DNA of 9,181 bases from a bacterium (GTDB taxonomy: Bacteria; CG2-30-53-67; CG2-30-70-394): contig JAJRSX010000119.1 in assembly GCA_024278555.1 (NCBI GenBank), positions 1 to 9,181 of the forward strand, written 5' to 3'. Below are positions 120-7,827 of this stretch, one piece after another. Under the pieces are notes generated by a model. That model was not told the DNA's origin. It worked only from the letters and a program-made list of their open reading frames with translations, and did no database searches. Positions within the stretch are counted from its first letter, which is position 1. Each line of letters begins with the position of its first letter. The position numbers were made by a program, and so were the translations under genes.

Positions 120-144
120 CATGGAAGACACAGAGGACACGGAG
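120..144 (-). repeat. Cluster A element A1 (minus orientation)
   Basis: Read on the minus strand this is CTCCGTG (144-138), two bases, CTCTGTG (135-129), one base, then CTTCCATG (127-120). That is the 7-2-7-1-7 layout of the family, with a slightly degenerate third unit. It is followed on the minus strand by a GC-rich flank containing GGCCGCTCCC. It faces elements A2 and A3 in the opposite orientation. Confidence 0.6.
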
Positions 145-250
145 AACTGCAAAGGAGGGGTGCGTTCCTCCTCTTGGGCCTCGCAATGGATCGCCACGGG
201 GTTGCCGTGCACGAGGACGGCGCAAGATCGTGCTGTGTTCTGATGGAGCT

Positions 251-293
251 CTCTGTGCCCTCCGTGTCTCTATGGTGAAAAACCCCTCCCGGG
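251..293 (+). repeat. Cluster A element A2
   Basis: Three 7-nt units, CTCTGTG (251-257), CTCCGTG (260-266) and CTCTATG (268-274), are spaced 2 and 1 nt apart and end in GTGAA (275-279). TCCCGGG (287-293) begins exactly 13 nt after the first G of GGTGA, and a perfect CTCCCGGGAG palindrome lies at 286-295. Unit spacing and flank phase match A3, B6 and C2. In translation such elements give spurious peptides of the HRDTEGTE type. No protein-coding role is supported. Confidence 0.7.
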
Positions 294-363
294 AGCCCCC
301 ACCTCCCGGCCGAGGGGTGGAGCGACGCCGTACTTGGCCTCCATTGCGATTTCCGCTGATCCT

Positions 364-407
364 CTCTGCGTCCTCTCCTGCCCTCTGTGGTGAAGCCTCC
401 CTCCGGG
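364..407 (+). repeat. Cluster A element A3
   Basis: The units are CTCTGCG (364-370), a degenerate middle unit carrying about two extra bases (CTCTCCTG, 373-380) and CTCTGTG (383-389), closed by GGTGAA (389-394). TCCGGG (402-407) again begins 13 nt after the first G of GGTGA. This element has the same orientation as A2 and the opposite orientation to A1. Confidence 0.65.
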
Positions 408-586
408 CCGCTGCCAAGGAGGTTGGTCCCACCGGTGACATCAGACCGCCAGCACCCTTTATTCGCGTCCATCCCCGTCTACTGGGGATCCACGGCCCGG
501 GCGTCGGGTTGGTGGTGTGGCGGTAGGAGCGGGCCATGCCCGCGACCCGGGGTCGCCGGCGGGCGCCCCCCCTCCCGGCCGCTCGT
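408..586. other. Gene-free stretch downstream of the PEP-CTERM gene
   Basis: This continues the gene-free stretch that begins at base 1. It holds no gene I can support. ATCCCC (471-476) and GGGGAT (484-489) form a 6-bp hairpin about 100 bp beyond the PEP-CTERM stop, but no T-tract follows on the minus strand, so it is at best a weak terminator. The remainder is GC-rich and includes a CTCCCGGCCG string like the flank of the nearby repeat elements. Confidence 0.35.
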
Positions 587-1450
587 TCACCCGCGGGGCG
601 ATCGGCGCCGGCCCGGGCCCCTCCGGTGGCGCCGGAGGGTAGCGAGCAGCGGCAGGGTGGTGATGAGAAGGGAGGTGGGCTCGGGCACGGATGTGGGGGG
701 AAGCGCCACGGTTACAACATCGAAGCCAAGAGAGAGGGTGTTCGACGTGGTGGCGTTTCCCGTGAGCCAGCTGGAGGTCGACGCGTCGTCGAGCTGGACC
801 TTCACCCCGATCGGTGAGCCCACCGGGAAGGTGGCGACCACGCTCTGGGTGTCCGTGCCGTCGTTCTGGCCGGTGCAGATGGGAACGAGCCACCCGGGCA
901 CACAGACCGTCTCGTCGTAGGTGAAGAGGCCGCTGCCGTAGATGGTGGCGGGGTTATTCAGATCGTAGATGCCGATGGTCACCGTGGTGGTGGTGTCTCC
1001 GTAATCGAAACCCTGAAAGTCGGTGCCGCCGCCACTGAGCTGGTGGGCCAGGGTGTAGGTGGCGGTCAGTTGATTGAAGGCGGGGGCAAGGATCGAGCCG
1101 GTGAAGATGGTTGAGGTGGTGGCGTTGCCGTGGACGCCGTTGACGTGGGTCGTGGACTGGAACTGCCAGGCGTCTACCCCGGTCGTGGCGGACTCGTCAT
1201 TCGTCGAGCCAACACCCCAAAACGGGCTGTTGTGATCCTGGGCCGAGGTGGCCATGGGCAGGGCCGAGGTGCTCCCCGGGAAGCTCTGGGTGTCGGTCAC
1301 CTGGTACACGGCGGAGGTCGTTGAGTACGTCGTCGTGTCGAAGGCGGTGAAGGGGGCCGCCTGGGCGACACGCGGCGGGGCCACGGCCGAGATCATCAGG
1401 GTGAGACCCAAGAGGTAAGAGGATGGGGTGGGTCGGGGTGTGCGGTGCAT
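587..1450 (-). CDS. PEP-CTERM sorting-signal protein
   Basis: This is a predicted secreted or surface protein of 287 residues. An n-region with basic residues and a hydrophobic stretch (about 13-24) lead to a likely signal-peptidase site after A31 (motif AQA, then AP). The body (about 32-250) is rich in Thr, Ser, Gly and Asn with beta-prone segments, as in many matrix or appendage proteins, and I recognise no catalytic domain. The C-terminus has VPEP at 255-258, a hydrophobic segment (about 260-271) and an Arg cluster (RRHRR at 273-277), which is the exosortase-recognised PEP-CTERM signal. Ten further residues rich in Arg follow the usual end. Only two cysteines lie in the mature region, C183 and C192. 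The ATG at 1450 is chosen over one 23 codons upstream because AAGGAG lies 6 nt before it and a signal peptide begins there. The adhesive or floc-matrix role is inferred from the family. Confidence 0.85.
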   Translation of the reverse strand: MHRTPRPTPSSYLLGLTLMISAVAPPRVAQAAPFTAFDTTTYSTTSAVYQVTDTQSFPGSTSALPMATSAQDHNSPFWGVGSTNDESATTGVDAWQFQSTTHVNGVHGNATTSTIFTGSILAPAFNQLTATYTLAHQLSGGGTDFQGFDYGDTTTTVTIGIYDLNNPATIYGSGLFTYDETVCVPGWLVPICTGQNDGTDTQSVVATFPVGSPIGVKVQLDDASTSSWLTGNATTSNTLSLGFDVVTVALPPTSVPEPTSLLITTLPLLATLRRHRRGPGRRRSPRG

Positions 1451-1456
1451 GGTGCG

Positions 1457-1462
1457 CTCCTT
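1457..1462 (-). promoter_or_regulatory. Shine-Dalgarno site of the PEP-CTERM gene
   Basis: AAGGAG on the minus strand, 6 nt before the ATG at 1450. It decides the start against the upstream in-frame ATG at 1519, which would also lie about at or upstream of the predicted transcription start. Confidence 0.75.
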
Positions 1463-1530
1463 GAATGTGAGTGGAGAGTCGGACCCTTTTTCCAACCGTG
1501 AGTTGCTCTCTTGTTTCATTGCTCTCGGTT

Positions 1531-1547
1531 AAGCAAACTTTGTGCCA
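1531..1547 (-). promoter_or_regulatory. Sigma-54 (-24/-12) promoter of the PEP-CTERM gene
   Basis: The minus strand reads TGGCACAAAGTTTGCTT from 1547 to 1531. This matches the RpoN consensus TGGCAC-N5-TTGCW at every specified position, with the invariant GG and GC at the required spacing. The predicted start of transcription is near 1521, giving a leader of about 70 nt before the ATG at 1450. PEP-CTERM systems are known to encode PrsK/PrsR, a kinase and NtrC-like sigma-54 activator, so the promoter type fits the gene. I saw no equally good match in the other intergenic gaps I inspected. Confidence 0.75.
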
Positions 1548-1652
1548 GATCCGCCGCCGAGGGGGGGTGGTGAGGAGGTTTGTTAGCTGCGCCAAGGGGT
1601 TGGCTCCCGATGGCGGCGCGACGCAGGTGGGCCCTCGGCGAACGTATCTTGT

Positions 1653-1682
1653 TGTCCGTCTTATTTTGAGACGGACAGACGG
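1653..1682. promoter_or_regulatory. Candidate upstream activator site (inverted repeat)
   Basis: TGTCCGTCT (1653-1661) and AGACGGACA (1669-1677) form a perfect 9-bp inverted repeat around a 7-nt AT-rich centre. A third half-site, AGACGG, follows at 1677-1682. The centre (about 1665) lies about 145 bp upstream of the start of transcription predicted from the sigma-54 promoter, a normal distance for an enhancer bound by an NtrC-type activator. It could instead be a transcript hairpin downstream of serS, but neither strand has a T-tract after it. Confidence 0.5.
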
Positions 1683-1721
1683 TGCGCTCCTCCGCCGGTT
1701 CCGATCTCGTCTCACGGAGCC

Positions 1722-1759
1722 GGTCGACCCCCATCGACCCGCCCGTCGTTGGGACGACG
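1722..1759 (-). terminator. Hairpin pair downstream of serS, possible weak terminator
   Basis: Directly after the serS stop codon, CGTCGT and ACGACG (1744-1749 and 1754-1759) form a 6-bp stem with a 4-nt loop. A second stem pairs GGTCGA (1722-1727) with TCGACC (1734-1739). Neither is followed by a T-run, so termination here, if any, would not be the classical intrinsic type. Confidence 0.35.
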
Positions 1760-3142
<1,383 letters not shown>

Positions 3143-3427
3143 CTACTCCTCTTCGACGACCACCGTGCCGCCGACCTTCACCTCGTGGTCGTCGTCATCG
3201 ATGAAGGAGAGGTAGGCGCCTTGGACCTCGATCTTGAAGCGGCCGTGCCAGGTGCGGATCGGGGCACCGTTGCAGTCGTAGAGGGTGACCTTGCGCTTCA
3301 GGCCGATGAGGCCCGATTTGACGTGCTTGATCCCCTTGCGCTGGCTCTCGGTGCAGCCGGTGGCGGTGAGCGTGAGGGCGAGGAGTGCGGCGAGGGCGAG
3401 GAGGGAGGGGGCGCGGAGAGTGCTCAT
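3143..3427 (-). CDS. Small lipoprotein of unknown function
   Basis: A 94-residue protein with a clear lipoprotein signal: a hydrophobic stretch rich in Leu and Ala (about 8-22) and a lipobox ending ATGC, with C25 as the lipidated cysteine. The mature part begins with a basic segment (QRKGIKHVKSG), then VTLYDCNGAPIRTW and FKIEVQGAYLSFIDDDDHEV, which read as short beta strands, and ends EEE. The general pattern, a basic start followed by VTLYD.NG.PI..W and SFIDDD, resembles small lipoproteins I associate with proteobacterial chromosomes and mobile elements, but I cannot name a function. The start at 3427 gives the complete signal peptide. No good Shine-Dalgarno site is present, and the gene starts 22 nt after the PAS gene ends, so translation may be coupled. 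The same frame extends far upstream but only as a shadow of the PAS gene. Confidence 0.8.
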   Translation of the reverse strand: MSTLRAPSLLALAALLALTLTATGCTESQRKGIKHVKSGLIGLKRKVTLYDCNGAPIRTWHGRFKIEVQGAYLSFIDDDDHEVKVGGTVVVEEE

Positions 3428-3449
3428 CACCGCAGGGTAGACGAAGGGC

Positions 3450-4055
3450 TCATCCCTCGTCAGCCGGGGGGGCACGGGGCGGCGGCGCGTCCTCCAGCTC
3501 CCGGTAGTAGACCGCCTCGCACCCCGGGCAGAGGGTGTGGGTGAAGAGAGTGTGGGAACGCGCCTCGACGTAGCGGTCCAGGGGGAGCCACTCGTCGTCT
3601 TGGCGTACCTGCTTGCACTGGGCGCAGATGGCGATGAGTCCCGGGAGGCGCTGGAGGTCGGTGATGTCTTGGAGGACCACCACCGCCGCCCCTGCATCGC
3701 TCCGTGTGGCCGGACCGGCGGAGCAGAGGAAGACGCGACGTACCGTCCCGTCCTCCCGGACGACGGGGATGACGGCCTCGCGGTGGATCCTCGTCTCGCC
3801 CGCCACCGCCGCCGTCACCGCGCTCCACAGGTGACACTGCTTACACGGCTTCCCCTCCCCACACCTCGCGCGGGTGGTGGCGACGCAGTGGATCACCTCC
3901 CCCGGCCGCCGTCCTACCGCCTCGTGGGTTTCCACCTGGAGCGTCTCGCGGGCGATCCGGTTGAGGCTTCGAACCCGCACCTCGGCATCGCACAGGAGCG
4001 CTGCCACCGGCAGCATCTCCATCCAGCCGTCCCCCCCTTGGGTTGAGCTGGTCAT
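3450..4055 (-). CDS. PAS-domain protein with C-terminal Cys4 ribbon
   Basis: A 201-residue, probably cytoplasmic sensor-like protein without an output enzyme. Residues about 12-133 form a PAS domain: MLPVAALLCDAEVRVRSLN at the start and VVVLQDITDL at 125-134 at the end. Inside it, H56-C57, C65, C71 and C74 (pattern CG...C..C.L) form the cysteine cluster seen in a subset of PAS domains. The tail has C144-x2-C147 (ICAQCKQVR) and C176-x2-C179 (LCPGCEAVYY), a module that commonly follows PAS domains in signalling proteins and looks like a zinc ribbon. It therefore has two potential Cys4 or HisCys sites, which suggests metal or redox sensing. No kinase, GGDEF or DNA-binding domain is present, so it may act through a partner. 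AGGAGG 5 nt before the ATG at 4055 fixes the start. The small lipoprotein follows after 22 nt. Confidence 0.8.
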   Translation of the reverse strand: MTSSTQGGDGWMEMLPVAALLCDAEVRVRSLNRIARETLQVETHEAVGRRPGEVIHCVATTRARCGEGKPCKQCHLWSAVTAAVAGETRIHREAVIPVVREDGTVRRVFLCSAGPATRSDAGAAVVVLQDITDLQRLPGLIAICAQCKQVRQDDEWLPLDRYVEARSHTLFTHTLCPGCEAVYYRELEDAPPPRAPPADEG

Positions 4056-4060
4056 GCCTG

Positions 4061-4066
4061 CCTCCT
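4061..4066 (-). promoter_or_regulatory. Strong Shine-Dalgarno site of the PAS gene
   Basis: A full AGGAGG on the minus strand, 5 nt before the ATG at 4055. It is the strongest ribosome-binding site among the minus-strand genes here. Confidence 0.75.
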
Positions 4067-4074
4067 GTCTAATT

Positions 4075-4117
4075 CCGTCCCAAACTTAGCACAACTCCAT
4101 GTAATTAAAGGTTATGC
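4075..4117 (-). promoter_or_regulatory. AT-rich promoter region of the PAS gene
   Basis: The 72-bp gap between the CorC-like gene and the PAS gene is noticeably AT-rich for this genome. On the minus strand it contains CCTTTAATTACATGG and GTGCTAAGTTTGG, where a sigma-70 type promoter would be expected, but no hexamer pair has both good matches and good spacing. I call it a likely promoter region rather than a defined promoter. Confidence 0.35.
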
Positions 4118-4127
4118 ATGCGGTCCA

Positions 4128-5378
4128 CTACCCGGCTTTGGTGGCCACCCGCCGCATCCATACCCGCTTCAGGCGCCGCCCATCCACCGCCATGACCCGC
4201 ACCTCGTAGCCATCGAAGCAGGCCGCCTCTCCCTCGCGCGGCAGGTGGCCGAGGTGGGCGATGATCCAGCCGGCGACGGTGTCGTACTCGCCCTCCCCCT
4301 CGGGGATCGCCCAGTCGAGGCGGCGGTTGATCTGGCCGATGTCGAGGCGGCCGTCGAGGAGGACCGCGTCGCGGCCGTGGGGGACGATGTCCATCTCCCC
4401 CTCCTCGCCGAGGCGGCCGGTGATCTCCTCGGCGATGTCCACGTAGGTGAGCAGGCCGGTGATGTCGCCGTACTCGTCGGCGACGATCGCCATCCGGTGG
4501 CCGTCGCGGCGTAGCTCCTCCAAGAGGGTTCCCACCGTCTTCGACTCGGGGACGAAGAGCGGCGGCTCCAGGAGGTGGTCCCAGTTGGGCCGCTCGCTGT
4601 GGCGCAGGGCGACGAGGAGGTCGAGGGCGGTGGCGATGCCGCGGATGGCCCCGTCGCTCCCCTCCACCGGGTAGCGGCGGAAGGGGTGGCGGTGGATCAC
4701 CTCGACCAGGGCGTCGGCGTCGGCGTCGGCGTCGAGGGTGACCATGTCGGCGCGCGGCACCATGATCTCGCGGACCCGCGTCGAGGCGAGGGCGAAGACG
4801 CCGTGCAGGCGATCCGCCGCCGCCGCCTCCAGCCCCCCCTCCTCCTCGCCGAGGGCGATGAGGCTCTGGAGCTCGGCGGCGGAGACGAACCCCTCCCCCT
4901 CGCTGCGCATCGGGAGCCAGGCGGTGAGGAGTCGGGAGATGCCGGTGAGCAGAAGCAGGAGCGGGTGGAGCAGGTGGCGCAGGGTGTCAATGGGGCGGGC
5001 GACGAAGAGGGCGACCGGGAGCGGGTAGCGGGCGGCGATCCCCTTCGGGGTGATCTCCCCGAAGAGCAGCAGCACCGCGGTCACCCCGAAGGTGGCGTAG
5101 GCGACCCCCGCCTCGCCGTAGAGGTGGAGGCAGAGCGCCGTGGCCAGGGCGGTGATCGCCACGTTCACCAGGTTGTTGCCGATGAGGATGGCACCGAGCA
5201 TCCCCTCCGGGTCTCCGCGCAGGGTCTCGATCCGCCGTGCCCCGGGGTGGCCGTCGGCCGCCAGCCGGCGGAGCTGCAGGCGACGCACCGCCAAGAGCGC
5301 GGTCTCCGAGGAGGAGAAGAAGCCGGAGAGGACGAGGCAGACGGCGAGGGCGAGGAGGGTGGTGAGGGTCTCGTTCAT
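4128..5378 (-). CDS. CNNM/CorC family membrane protein with CBS pair
   Basis: A 416-residue inner-membrane protein of the CNNM (DUF21)-CBS-CorC_HlyC architecture, the family of bacterial CorB/YfjD and MpfA proteins linked to magnesium export. The DUF21 membrane domain (about 1-155) carries FSSSETALL (21-29), IGNNLVN (66-72) and FGEITPKGIA (106-115), all family hallmarks, and hydrophobic segments at about 5-20, 60-82, 90-107 and 118-155. The CBS pair spans about 203-322, with the family signature MVPRADM (206-212) and DEYGDITGLLT (301-311), and probably binds a nucleotide. A CorC_HlyC domain occupies about 333-412. The start gives the usual N-terminus, but its upstream sequence is C-rich and has no Shine-Dalgarno site. 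A DADADADA run (216-223) within CBS1 comes from a DNA microrepeat. The gene is followed by the PAS gene after 72 bp. Magnesium transport is inferred from the family. Confidence 0.9.
   Translation of the reverse strand: MNETLTTLLALAVCLVLSGFFSSSETALLAVRRLQLRRLAADGHPGARRIETLRGDPEGMLGAILIGNNLVNVAITALATALCLHLYGEAGVAYATFGVTAVLLLFGEITPKGIAARYPLPVALFVARPIDTLRHLLHPLLLLLTGISRLLTAWLPMRSEGEGFVSAAELQSLIALGEEEGGLEAAAADRLHGVFALASTRVREIMVPRADMVTLDADADADALVEVIHRHPFRRYPVEGSDGAIRGIATALDLLVALRHSERPNWDHLLEPPLFVPESKTVGTLLEELRRDGHRMAIVADEYGDITGLLTYVDIAEEITGRLGEEGEMDIVPHGRDAVLLDGRLDIGQINRRLDWAIPEGEGEYDTVAGWIIAHLGHLPREGEAACFDGYEVRVMAVDGRRLKRVWMRRVATKAG
4710..4733 (+). repeat. GGCGTC hexanucleotide tandem repeat inside a CDS
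   Basis: Four perfect tandem copies of GGCGTC. In the CorC-like protein they encode a repeated Asp-Ala dipeptide (D216-A223) between the VPR motif and the first CBS helix. Being a multiple of three, copy-number slippage would change loop length without breaking the frame. Confidence 0.85.
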
Positions 5379-5404
5379 GGGCGGGGAGGAGGGGGGCGGT
5401 GGGT

Positions 5405-5426
5405 TAAGTCACGAAGGAGCCGAAGG
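5405..5426 (-). repeat. Cluster B element B1 (minus orientation)
   Basis: The minus strand reads CTTCGG, CTC, CTTCGTG and then ACTTAA. This is a two-unit, CTTCGTG-dialect member of the dispersed repeat family, ending in the TTAA-like terminus seen in other dialects. It lies just upstream of the CorC-like gene. Confidence 0.45.
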
Positions 5427-5437
5427 GGGGGGGCTCG

Positions 5438-5453
5438 CGCAGAGGCGCAAGAG
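5438..5453 (-). repeat. Cluster B element B2 (minus orientation)
   Basis: The minus strand reads CTCTTGCG (5453-5446), one base, CTCTGCG (5444-5438). It is a short two-unit member in the CTCTGCG dialect, 11 nt from B1. Confidence 0.45.
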
Positions 5454-5550
5454 AGACCGGGCCGCAAATGGGCCGCGAATGTTTGTCAGGCAGGGTGGGG
5501 TGCCACCGGCGATCACCGCGTGGTTGGGGTTCTCCCGTGCAGCCATGGTT

Positions 5551-5569
5551 CATCGCGCAGACGCAGCGG
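5551..5569 (-). repeat. Cluster B element B3, degenerate
   Basis: The minus strand has CTGCG, T, CTGCG, then CGATGAA. This may be a decayed CTCTGCG-dialect element. It is too short and irregular to be certain. Confidence 0.3.
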
Positions 5570-5653
5570 GGGAGGTGGATGGCGCCCCTCTGGCGCGAGG
5601 CGGGAGGGGAGGGGGCACAGCCGTGATGCGTTGACGCACGGCAGGAAAAGTGG

Positions 5654-5672
5654 CCACGGAATCCACGGAAGG
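5654..5672 (-). repeat. Cluster B element B4, left arm of inverted repeat
   Basis: The plus strand reads CCACGGAATCCACGGAAGG. It is the reverse complement of 5785-5803 at 18 of 19 positions. On the minus strand it has two TTCCGTG units 2 nt apart. Confidence 0.75.
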
Positions 5673-5776
5673 GGCGAGAGCACGCGACGGGGGGTAGAGA
5701 ACGAGGCGGCGCCTGCCGTGTGTCGAGCAGGAACGGGAGTTCGGGTCTCTCGCACAACCCAACGTGAGGCGTCTAC

Positions 5777-5806
5777 TTCCGTGTCCTTCCGTGGGTTCCG
5801 TGGTAA
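5777..5806 (+). repeat. Cluster B element B5, right arm of inverted repeat
   Basis: Three identical TTCCGTG units at 5777-5783, 5787-5793 and 5796-5802 end in GTAA. Spacers are 3 and 2 nt. Positions 5785-5803 pair with element B4 across a 112-nt gap. Confidence 0.75.
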
Positions 5807-5876
5807 TAAAAGCCTTCCTGGCTGTTGCGCGCTGGTCGTCTCCACCGATGACCTCTTGCCTCCTGGTCCACCACCC

Positions 5877-5922
5877 CTCTGCGTCCTCTGCGCCTCTGCG
5901 GTGAGACCGCCTTCCCGGCCGC
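5877..5922 (+). repeat. Cluster B element B6
   Basis: Three perfect CTCTGCG units at 5877-5883, 5886-5892 and 5894-5900 (spacers 2 and 1 nt) close with GGTGA. TCCCGGCCGC (5913-5922) begins 13 nt after the first G of GGTGA. It matches element C2 of cluster C at 25 of 27 core positions. Confidence 0.75.
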
Positions 5923-5987
5923 CTCCCTACTGCGTGGGGCAGCGGCGACGCCTGCTCCCCGGCCCTCCACACCGCTGTGCATCTCCA

Positions 5988-6001
5988 CGGGGCGATCCCC
6001 G
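5988..6001 (-). terminator. Hairpin downstream of the amidohydrolase
   Basis: CGGGG (5988-5992) and CCCCG (5997-6001) form a 5-bp stem with a 4-nt loop 9 nt beyond the stop codon of the minus-strand amidohydrolase. No T-run follows, so its role in termination is uncertain. Confidence 0.3.
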
Positions 6002-6010
6002 CCGGGCTCC

Positions 6011-7270
6011 TCATGGGACATCCGTTCCGGCCACCGCGCTTCCCGCCACCATGGCCAGGCGCAGCCGGCCGCGGTCGAACAGCAGCCGCTCGGGGAGGCG
6101 GGCCAGCGGCCCGCCCTCTACCTCCACGGCGATCACGTCCGCCGCCCGCCCCGGGGTGAGGGCGCCGGCCACCCTCTGCCAGCCGAGGCAGCGGGCGGAG
6201 CCGGCGGTGGCCATCGCCAGAAGCTGCTCGGCGGTGAGGGGCTCGGGGGTGGTGCGGTGCCAGAGGTAGGCGAAGGCGAGCTCCTCCCACAGATCGAGCG
6301 ATGGGCACGACGCGAGGGAGTCGGTGCCGAGCCCTACCGAGATCCCCAGGGCGAGCCAGCGGGCCACCGGCGGGGGCGGCTGGCCGAGGTAGGCGTTGGA
6401 GCGCGGGCAGTGGCAGAGGGCGGCTCCGGCGGCGGCGACGCGGGCCATCTCCGCTGCGGTGAGGTGGCAGCCGTGGATGAGGAGGGCGCCTTCGAGGAGG
6501 CCGTGGCGGGTGAGGGGATCCAGGGGAGAGGGGCCCGTGGGGAGGGGGAGGTCTCCCCAGCCGACCGCCGGAAAGAACGCCTCGGCGAGGGGACCGTTGC
6601 CGTGGGCCAGGAGCGCCACCTCGGCGCGTGACTCGGCCATGTGCACGGTGAGCGGTGCCGGGTGGCCACGGTGCCACGCCCCGAGCCGCTCCCAGAGGCG
6701 GTCGGAGAGGGTGTAGGGGGCGTGCGCCGAGACCCCGAGGGTGAGGGGCGGGTCGGGGTGGGCCATCCCCACCGCCTGGAACCGGTCGGCGAGGCGGCCG
6801 AGGGCGAGGTCGGCACGCGCCGGGTCGAGGGCGAGGAGCTCAATGTCCAGGCGCACCCGCATGCCGGAGGCCAGCAGCGGCGCCTGGGCGATGTCGATCG
6901 AGGCGATGTCGCCCACCCCGGTGGTGCCGGTAGCCACCAGCGTGGCCACCGCCGCGGCCGCGGCCCGGGCCGCCTCCCCCGCCTCCAGCCGCCGCTTCTG
7001 CTCCACCAGGCCGAGGAGCCAGCCGACGAAGTCGTGGGCCACCGGCCGCTCCGGGCCGAGGGCGGCGAGCTCCAGGTGGGTGTGGGCGTTGATCAGCCCC
7101 GGCAGGAGGCAGGCACCCTCCAGGTGGCGAACCTCCTCGCCCGCCTCGGCCAGCGGGGTGAGGTCCGGCCGCCGCCCCACCGCCGCGATGGTGCCGTCGA
7201 CGATCCGCACCCCTCCGTCCTCCAGGGCGTGGCCCGCCTCCGGCCACAGCCAGTCCGCAGTGAGAATCAT
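6011..7270 (-). CDS. TrzA/AtzA-type amidohydrolase, probable nucleoside deaminase
   Basis: A 419-residue cytoplasmic metal-dependent hydrolase of the amidohydrolase superfamily, in the subgroup with cytosine, SAH/MTA and aminofutalosine deaminases. An N-terminal beta-sandwich part (about 1-55) precedes PGLINAHTHLEL (57-68) with metal ligands H63 and H65. Next come SAHAPYT (181-187), VHMAES (209-214) with ligand H210 and catalytic-type E213, IHGCHL (265-270), CPRSN (288-292) and GTDS (315-318) with D317. All expected metal and catalytic positions look intact, so it should be active. The HTHLELxxL start of the barrel resembles aminofutalosine deaminase-like members of the menaquinone futalosine route. 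The neighbouring mtnP argues equally for an MTA or deoxyadenosine-type substrate. The start lacks a strong Shine-Dalgarno site but begins like family members. Repeat clusters B and C flank the gene. Confidence 0.88.
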   Translation of the reverse strand: MILTADWLWPEAGHALEDGGVRIVDGTIAAVGRRPDLTPLAEAGEEVRHLEGACLLPGLINAHTHLELAALGPERPVAHDFVGWLLGLVEQKRRLEAGEAARAAAAAVATLVATGTTGVGDIASIDIAQAPLLASGMRVRLDIELLALDPARADLALGRLADRFQAVGMAHPDPPLTLGVSAHAPYTLSDRLWERLGAWHRGHPAPLTVHMAESRAEVALLAHGNGPLAEAFFPAVGWGDLPLPTGPSPLDPLTRHGLLEGALLIHGCHLTAAEMARVAAAGAALCHCPRSNAYLGQPPPPVARWLALGISVGLGTDSLASCPSLDLWEELAFAYLWHRTTPEPLTAEQLLAMATAGSARCLGWQRVAGALTPGRAADVIAVEVEGGPLARLPERLLFDRGRLRLAMVAGSAVAGTDVP

Positions 7271-7304
7271 GGTCGCCAGCCGGGCATTGGGGATGACGAG
7301 GGCG

Positions 7305-7330
7305 TCATGCAGAGGCGCAGCGGTGCAGAG
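7305..7330 (-). repeat. Cluster C element C1 (minus orientation)
   Basis: The minus strand reads CTCTGCA (7330-7324), a shortened GCTGCG unit and CTCTGCA (7314-7308), ending TGA. It is a degenerate three-unit member facing the three plus-oriented elements of this cluster. It lies only about 35 bp upstream of the amidohydrolase start, inside the likely leader of that gene. Confidence 0.5.
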
Positions 7331-7515
7331 CGCGGGTTGGCCACCTCAATCCCCGCAGTGAACCAAACCCCCTGTCTGGTTGACTCGTTCGCGAAGATCT
7401 TGAGGAAAACCCACCGTCCCCTCCCGCCCCCAACCCCCCCGTGGTCAACCGCCTTCAAGGGCGAAACGATCCCAGAGTGAAGCGCCTGTGGCGCCGTCCC
7501 CCAGGTGCTCTCCCC

Positions 7516-7556
7516 CTCTGCGTTCTCTGCGTCTCTGCGGTGCGATCCCTTTCGGC
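7516..7556 (+). repeat. Cluster C element C2
   Basis: Three perfect CTCTGCG units at 7516-7522, 7525-7531 and 7533-7539 are closed by GGTG. Spacers are 2 and 1 nt, identical to B6 and A2. A TCGG at 7552 sits at the same 13-nt phase as TCCCGG in the other members. Confidence 0.75.
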
Positions 7557-7574
7557 ACGGTGGACCGGCCGCCC

Positions 7575-7610
7575 CTTTGCGCCTTTGCGTCTTTGCCTCT
7601 TTGCGTTGAG
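7575..7610 (+). repeat. Cluster C element C3, four units
   Basis: CTTTGCG at 7575-7581, CTTTGCG at 7583-7589, CTTTGCC at 7591-7597 and CTTTGCG at 7599-7605, each separated by one base, end in TTGAG. It has four units in a distinct dialect with an 8-nt period. Confidence 0.75.
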
Positions 7611-7677
7611 CGCCGCTTCCAGCATGCACGGCGTTGGGCTGCATCGCATGCGACGCCACGCGCGTCTCTCCCCTCTC

Positions 7678-7706
7678 CTTCGTGGCCTTCGCGCCCTTCG
7701 TGGTCT
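7678..7706 (+). repeat. Cluster C element C4
   Basis: CTTCGTG (7678-7684), CTTCGCG (7687-7693) and CTTCGTG (7696-7702) have 2-nt spacers, then GTCTTG. This is the CTTCGTG dialect with a 9-nt period. Confidence 0.7.
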
Positions 7707-7827
7707 TGCCCCTCCCAGCCGCCCGATGCTCGGCTGCCGGCCGTGGCGACCAACCATCCGGGGTGGTAGCCTCCCGCCTCCACACCCCGTTGATTTTCCA
7801 GCGGGGCCGGGCAGGAGACGGACAACG

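Follow-up and report, generated by a model that had tools for sequence, protein, structure and literature searches.

Short tandem arrays of 7-nt units, of the general form YTYYGYG, lie in three intergenic gaps of the window, by which we mean the whole 9,181-nt stretch of bacterial DNA that was analyzed. A chain search allowing at most one mismatch per unit recovered seven chains of at least three YTYYGYG-like units, all inside the three gaps and none in genes, while dinucleotide-shuffled gaps yield 0.06 such chains (maximum 1). A preliminary description made from the letters of the window had placed about 13 elements exclusively in these gaps; the location holds for the robust chains (7/7), but the remainder of that tally consists of degenerate copies. 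The features are listed below, with the strand in brackets.

120-148 (-): left arm of element A, CTCCGTG-TC-CTCTGTG-T..., directed outward to the left; inverted partner of 251-280
251-280 (+): right arm of element A, closing with GGTGAA
361-397 (+): degenerate array downstream of element A, CTCTGCG-TC-CTCTCCTG-CC-CTCTGTG-GTGA
5654-5672 (-): left arm of element B5, TTCCGTG dialect
5777-5807 (+): right arm of element B5, closing with GTAAT
5877-5905 (+): array B6, three exact CTCTGCG units, closing with GGTGAG
7273-7759 (no strand): stretch with C2-C4, shrunk to 14 nt at the syntenic place in the same-genus genome G007
7309-7330 (-): probable decayed left arm of element C2, with a weak score (11.5 against a shuffled 95% value of 11.0)
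7516-7543 (+): array C2, three exact CTCTGCG units, closing with GGTGCG
7575-7609 (+): array C3, CTTTGCG dialect, four units at a spacing of 8, closing with TTGA
7678-7706 (+): array C4, CTTCGTG/CTTCGCG dialect

The spacers are those first described, that is, 2 then 1 nt in A2 (251-274), B6 (5877-5900) and C2 (7516-7539), 1, 1, and 1 nt in C3 (7575-7605), 2 and 2 nt in C4 (7678-7702), and 3 and 2 nt in B5 (5777-5802). The proposed closings GGTGA, GTAA, and TTGA do occur, although C2 ends in GGTGC and C4 in GGTCTTG. Elements A and B5 form inverted pairs which out-fold all shuffles: the arms of A (120-148/251-280) reach an inverted-arm score of 15.5 against a shuffled maximum of 11.5, with a hairpin z of -4.0, and the left arm of B5 (5654-5672) is 95% complementary to 5785-5803, with a hairpin z of -4.9. 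The window arm search found no significant inverted partner remaining for B6, C3, or C4 and no clear one for the array at 361-397, whose best score falls within the shuffles. The presence of 7273-7759 relative to G007 could reflect insertion or loss. Positions 126-280 form the core of a dispersed family with at least 53 matches in the same genome (40 of 291 candidates scored), many of which end exactly at 126 and about 280. The window holds no rRNA and has no Rfam match.

Two neighboring repeats were also seen. Positions 1-127 hold a second repeat that abuts element A and is 97-99% identical in several other contigs, the contig ending inside it. At the place of the second gap in G007 (C12, ~25780-26010; L228), there are four 28-nt palindromic repeats ~66 nt apart, which are CRISPR-like or REP-like.

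Genome-wide distribution and inverted pairing

Copy number against a control and enrichment between genes had been proposed as checks on the family. A strict three-unit pattern has 67 matches in the 3.06-Mb genome (33 forward, 34 reverse), whereas the reversed pattern has one. In 44 stretches around matches, with genes called by a codon model trained on the window, 0/52 re-fetched matches overlap predicted coding sequence, while 64% of the surveyed DNA is coding. The family therefore withstands both tests, and its description as real and intergenic, with a common grammar and dialects, is supported.

The arrangement of the arrays adds a point that the preliminary description missed. Among opposite-strand neighboring chains in the sampled stretches, at most 600 nt apart, 28 pairs face outward and three inward (p = 5e-6), and the loops between the outward pairs are mostly 40-200 nt. 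The arrays are outward-facing inverted pairs and the element is therefore a palindrome of which they are the two arms. The second point that had been missed is that the arrays bound a gene family.

Gene families between the arrays

The array units resemble sequence in front of genes annotated GxxExxY, and this lead was then tested. Of the four GxxExxY genes in the window's genome one is frameshifted, and all are beside or between arrays: one is enclosed by a perfect inverted repeat of 31 nt (TCACCGCAGAGACGCAGAGGACGCAGAGGGA and complement; L009), two lie between arrays (L011, L012), and one adjoins an array (L010). A contig scan yielded 80 GxxExxY loci spread across many phyla, among them Chloroflexota, Acidobacteriota, Planctomycetota, Verrucomicrobiota, and Bacteroidota as well as Pseudomonadota, Desulfobacterota, Cyanobacteria, and archaea (names as given in the database records). 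These loci are the ones most closely related to the query, and their uniform dialect is partly a consequence of this. In the 76 that were usable for a flank test, a chain stands on both sides of the gene in 55 and on at least one side in 73, against 0/381 for controls at shifted positions within the same loci. Unit density at these flanks is 19/kb in the outward direction, 4.3 inward, and 2.8 in controls; the units are spaced at 8, 9, or 10 nt, and GTGA directly follows the last unit in 55 cases. A motif-free alignment of the inverted arms places 54/75 loci above the 99th percentile of control positions.

Strict arrays and the gene also co-occur, imperfectly, across genomes. In 149 genomes from the phylum of an acidobacterial locus, of which 29 have the array and 54 have GxxExxY, the gene is present in 25/29 array genomes and 29/120 others (Fisher p 9e-10), leaving 29 genomes with the gene and no strict pattern and four with the pattern and no gene. 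The recurrence in unrelated genomes named in the preliminary description is thereby borne out, by the strict version in 29/149 genomes of one phylum and by GxxExxY flanks across many phyla. The arrays can far outnumber the genes (85 vs. 3 in genome G147, 61 vs. 1 in G171) and most are therefore gene-less. A Treponema plasmid copy (L318, 39% identity) has no heptamer array of the usual kind, and distant GxxExxY proteins may lack arrays. For GxxExxY remnants in the gaps of the window, tblastn gave matches at chance level only, on which the queries disagree. A full member would have inverted YTYNGYG arrays on both sides of a GxxExxY gene; with no such gene in the gaps, the window arrays are a relative or derivative, and judging by their shared ends they are probably relatives of the GxxExxY type that carry no gene or have decayed.

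The protein itself is well conserved. The catalytic residues D67, E77, and K79 are 97-100% conserved in 78 sequences, and the closest pair has a dN of 0.04 and a dS of 0.44. An AlphaFold model (pLDDT 94) has a PD-(D/E)XK fold and its best structural match is SSO0001, a Cas4 nuclease (Z 9.3 over 101 residues); the remaining matches have Z under 8 and share the same general fold class, which is not specific. PADLOC reports weak Cas4 likeness only (E 0.02), a sequence search found no solved structure, and phage records contain no GxxExxY. By the core fold of the model and the D...ExK residues, GxxExxY would be a conserved PD-(D/E)XK nuclease. Literature searches gave unrelated matches only for the array units and incidental mentions only for GxxExxY. 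In several Betaproteobacteria (L083, L087, L089, L105) a GxxExxY element lies just upstream of an apparent glutamine amidotransferase gene with a trpG-like start, a position which suggests one old insertion kept by descent.

A second cargo, unrelated to GxxExxY, is found between inverted arrays built alike, namely the S23/four-helix-bundle family (PF05635). Both S23 genes of the window's genome are between inverted arrays, of the GGGATGG and AAGTAGG types. In a sample of 57 S23 genes from the phylum of the window's genome and 24 other genomes, the arm score exceeds the 99th percentile of control positions for 37, and for 39/57 the left arm is matched by its own right arm at least as well as by any other. 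The period, where clear, is 7 in 21/26 and 8 in 5/26, and the dialects include CCCTATA, GTTCACC, AATGACC, CTCGGTA, and GACTCCT. The similarity between the two arms of one element is 0.60; between elements, arm similarity is 0.58 at >65% protein identity and 0.15, that is, background, at <55%. Two species of the window's genus have an S23 gene at one shared position, and the arrays there have drifted, on both sides, from TTTCTAC/TTCCTAC to TGTCTAC/TACCTAC. The arms drift together on both sides, and the dialects first described are thus lineages: they are lineage-specific ends of distinct element families, common to both arms of one element. Recognition by one protein or copying between the arms of a hairpin could each maintain such matching, and either would suffice. 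The S23 protein forms a four-helix bundle; 2gsc is a relative of known structure, and the Avd protein of diversity-generating retroelements is a weak match.

The proteins of an acidobacterial (L157) and a cyanobacterial (L300) locus are 70% identical and both have the GACTCCT dialect, a likeness that suggests transfer of gene and arrays together between phyla. An S23 gene of Ignavibacteria (L175) is between non-heptamer inverted repeats, CCTGCCCTC...GGCGGGCAGG.

The association with two gene families bears on whether these are REP/BIME-like repeats moved by host Y1 (RAYT-type) transposases, which we consider quite improbable. The outward pairing of inverted arrays, their location between genes, and their high copy number do resemble REP/BIMEs (PMC3733652) and the genome has four Y1 transposase genes (L016-L019). 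Those genes are, however, bordered by other sequences (e.g., GGGGTCAGGTCTTG, AAAAGGGGACAGGACCC), with the exception of one degenerate unit pair near L018, whereas arrays stand next to GxxExxY in 73/76 cases and next to S23 in the majority. The tips of the arrays are GGTGA, GGTTA, GGTAA, or GGTTC; the GTAG/CGTC tags that define REPs are not the rule and GTAG occurs once only.

Insertion sites and the proposed explanation

Filled and empty sites on cyanobacterial plasmids reveal that the arrays and the S23 gene insert as one unit of ~400-510 bp. Between plasmid C of Trichormus variabilis ATCC 29413 and Nostoc linckia NIES-25, both arrays and the gene are inserted and GTAAT is duplicated. In Nostoc sp. 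ATCC 53789, one plasmid carries an S23 element with GGAGTCA arrays between operon genes 1 and 2; on another plasmid, genes 2 and 3 of a related operon are separated by a different S23 element, whose arrays are of the GGGAAAA type. At the latter place C052 has only an overlapping stop-start, TAATG; relative to it, 506 bp are inserted, ATG is duplicated, and there is no further mismatch. On a plasmid of Picosynechococcus PCC 7003 (L299, 704-1060) an S23 element separates cas10 from cmr3 in a type III-B CRISPR operon and is absent in PCC 7002, and Aulosira NIES-50 provides an additional, less exact case. Arrays are lacking at the empty sites and are therefore part of the element, not of the target. 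Three sites have their junction at or next to the upstream stop codon; most of the compared insertions fall at a stop codon within an operon, in sense. The junction duplications of 5, 3, and 0-1 bp are unlike those of a classical transposase.

These sites also bear on whether the arrays are intergenic repeats with a regulatory or structural role (as binding sites, quadruplexes, or supercoil-related sequences), or plain slippage products, that are near these genes by chance. For heptamer repeats of Xanthomonas and Nostoc, quadruplex formation or a regulatory role has been discussed (PMC4692102), and for TAACTGA repeats a role in translational regulation (PMC4679880). Against this, the arrays arrive with the gene at otherwise empty sites, two specific gene families are flanked by them while control positions are not, and the lineage-specific sequence is common to left and right arms; we disfavor this explanation as highly improbable.

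For GxxExxY itself no clean filled/empty pair was found. At the site of one GxxExxY element of the window's genome (L009), G007 has a short palindrome whose ends are the same but which contains no gene, giving a gene-bearing and a gene-less allele. The filled and empty sites show mobility for the S23 elements; for the window copies it is probable. Multiple GxxExxY copies in genome G128 were considered as a case of own mobility and rejected, as they ride inside an insertion sequence with its own transposase-like ORFs. This insertion sequence (L294-L298) has IS5-like transposase ORFs and carries GxxExxY as a passenger just behind the transposase; in many copies the gene is deleted between short GGGCTTG repeats and both arms are retained.

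Where the neighbors are co-directional, the element gene is in sense with them at 33:8 for GxxExxY and 26:4 for S23 (gene calls being the longest open frame). Such placement is usual for operon genes and unusual for strand-blind insertion, and selection could produce it. It is also a point in favor of the main rival, in which these would be RNA-level elements like the intervening sequences (IVS) of 23S rRNA, present in host transcripts, with a stem cleavable by RNase III, copied via an RNA intermediate by a reverse transcriptase acting in trans, and with a protein that stabilizes or escorts the RNA. Additionally, the plasmid insertions are at or near stop codons within operons, size and stem equal those of the Coxiella IVS (PMC4990558), S23 weakly matches the Avd model of diversity-generating retroelements, and the whole element has a predicted RNA fold z of -6.4. 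However, the element encodes no reverse transcriptase, the sense bias can be explained by selection against antisense copies or a need for host transcription, and the GxxExxY fold is typical of DNA nucleases, though the class includes RNA-cutting members. None of the 20 S23 loci tested is inside an rRNA gene or has an rRNA or Rfam match. Overall, we regard an RNA route as unlikely.

The explanation that we consider probable is that each array is one end of a very small, palindromic mobile element carrying GxxExxY, S23, or no gene. A full element would span ~400-510 bp and consist of an array, one small gene, and the same array inverted, such that one strand could fold into a long stem around the gene; GxxExxY would go with CTCTGTG-type ends and S23 with ends that vary by lineage. 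GxxExxY elements would move in the manner of S23 elements: the encoded protein would recognize its own arrays or their hairpin and cut or bridge DNA, and the element would thereby be copied into a new gene junction. The gene-less copies, which are more numerous than the genes, would be served in trans. The co-variation of arms and protein lineage supports a protein that may act on its own arrays; joint descent also predicts it. S23 is not a known enzyme, so the moving machinery, for the S23 type at least, may come from elsewhere. The preliminary description had suggested protein binding, RNA structure, or mobilization as reasons for the conserved architecture; mobilization is retained and binding by the element's own protein is possible, but the pattern can be explained without binding of a host factor.

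We further propose, with somewhat more doubt than conviction, a cross-domain mobile class defined by architecture, in which inverted, lineage-private 7-nt arrays accompany either a PD-(D/E)XK nuclease or a non-enzymatic four-helix-bundle protein. Its members would insert in sense at operon stop codons and seed most gene-less bacterial heptamer repeats, possibly including STRR and GGGAATC repeats. Among mostly openly licensed articles, we found none linking S23 or GxxExxY to arrays. If true, this would account for a repeat scattered through bacterial and archaeal genomes, where its translation yields spurious small ORFs, and it would place two very common protein families of unknown function, GxxExxY and four-helix-bundle/S23, in a biological context. 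It would also make the 23S rRNA intervening sequences, so far a curiosity of rRNA, part of a widespread class that lives in operons. The filled/empty pair of Picosynechococcus PCC 7003 and PCC 7002, both laboratory strains, makes the idea testable.

Comparison with known systems

Several described repeats share some of these properties. The TAACTGA repeats of Beggiatoaceae are likewise intergenic heptamers common to distant phyla, but they are direct repeats with practically no inverted sets and one fixed sequence (PMC4679880). Heptamers of the GGGAATC type in Xanthomonas and Nostoc are intergenic and tandem, with ~70 inverted pairs per Xanthomonas genome and unknown function (PMC4692102). Reports on these and on the cyanobacterial STRR repeats do not tie them to S23, GxxExxY, or insertion (PMC4692102), whereas here the arrays are shown to be the ends of elements.

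MITEs are alike as dispersed, short, palindromic, non-autonomous, non-coding copies with inverted ends, one of the present copies being allelic to a gene-bearing form. They differ in that the ends here are tandem arrays and no parent DDE transposon was found for the window family, and they may differ in their target duplications, which vary in length among the S23 sites. REP/BIMEs with their RAYTs resemble the present elements in having a single nuclease gene bounded by inverted repeats, solo intergenic copies, and outward pairs (PMC3733652). In contrast, the nuclease here is of the PD-(D/E)XK rather than the HUH Y1 type, the ends are 7-nt arrays without a GTAG/CGTC tag, and the S23 type has no known enzyme.

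The closest described thing to the S23 type is the Coxiella IVS, which is 428 nt long, contains an S23 ORF, and has a 28-bp terminal stem cut by RNase III, its origin being unclear (PMC4990558). The IVS of 23S rRNA in Coxiella, Salmonella, and others are alike in their ~430 nt, S23 ORF, terminal stem of ~30 bp, and suspected mobility. An S23 ORF between terminal inverted repeats is likewise what the S23 type has, while the window's own type carries GxxExxY or nothing. Unlike the IVS, however, the present elements are in protein operons, their arms are lineage-private tandem 7-nt arrays, and they add a second cargo, GxxExxY, together with abundant gene-less copies.
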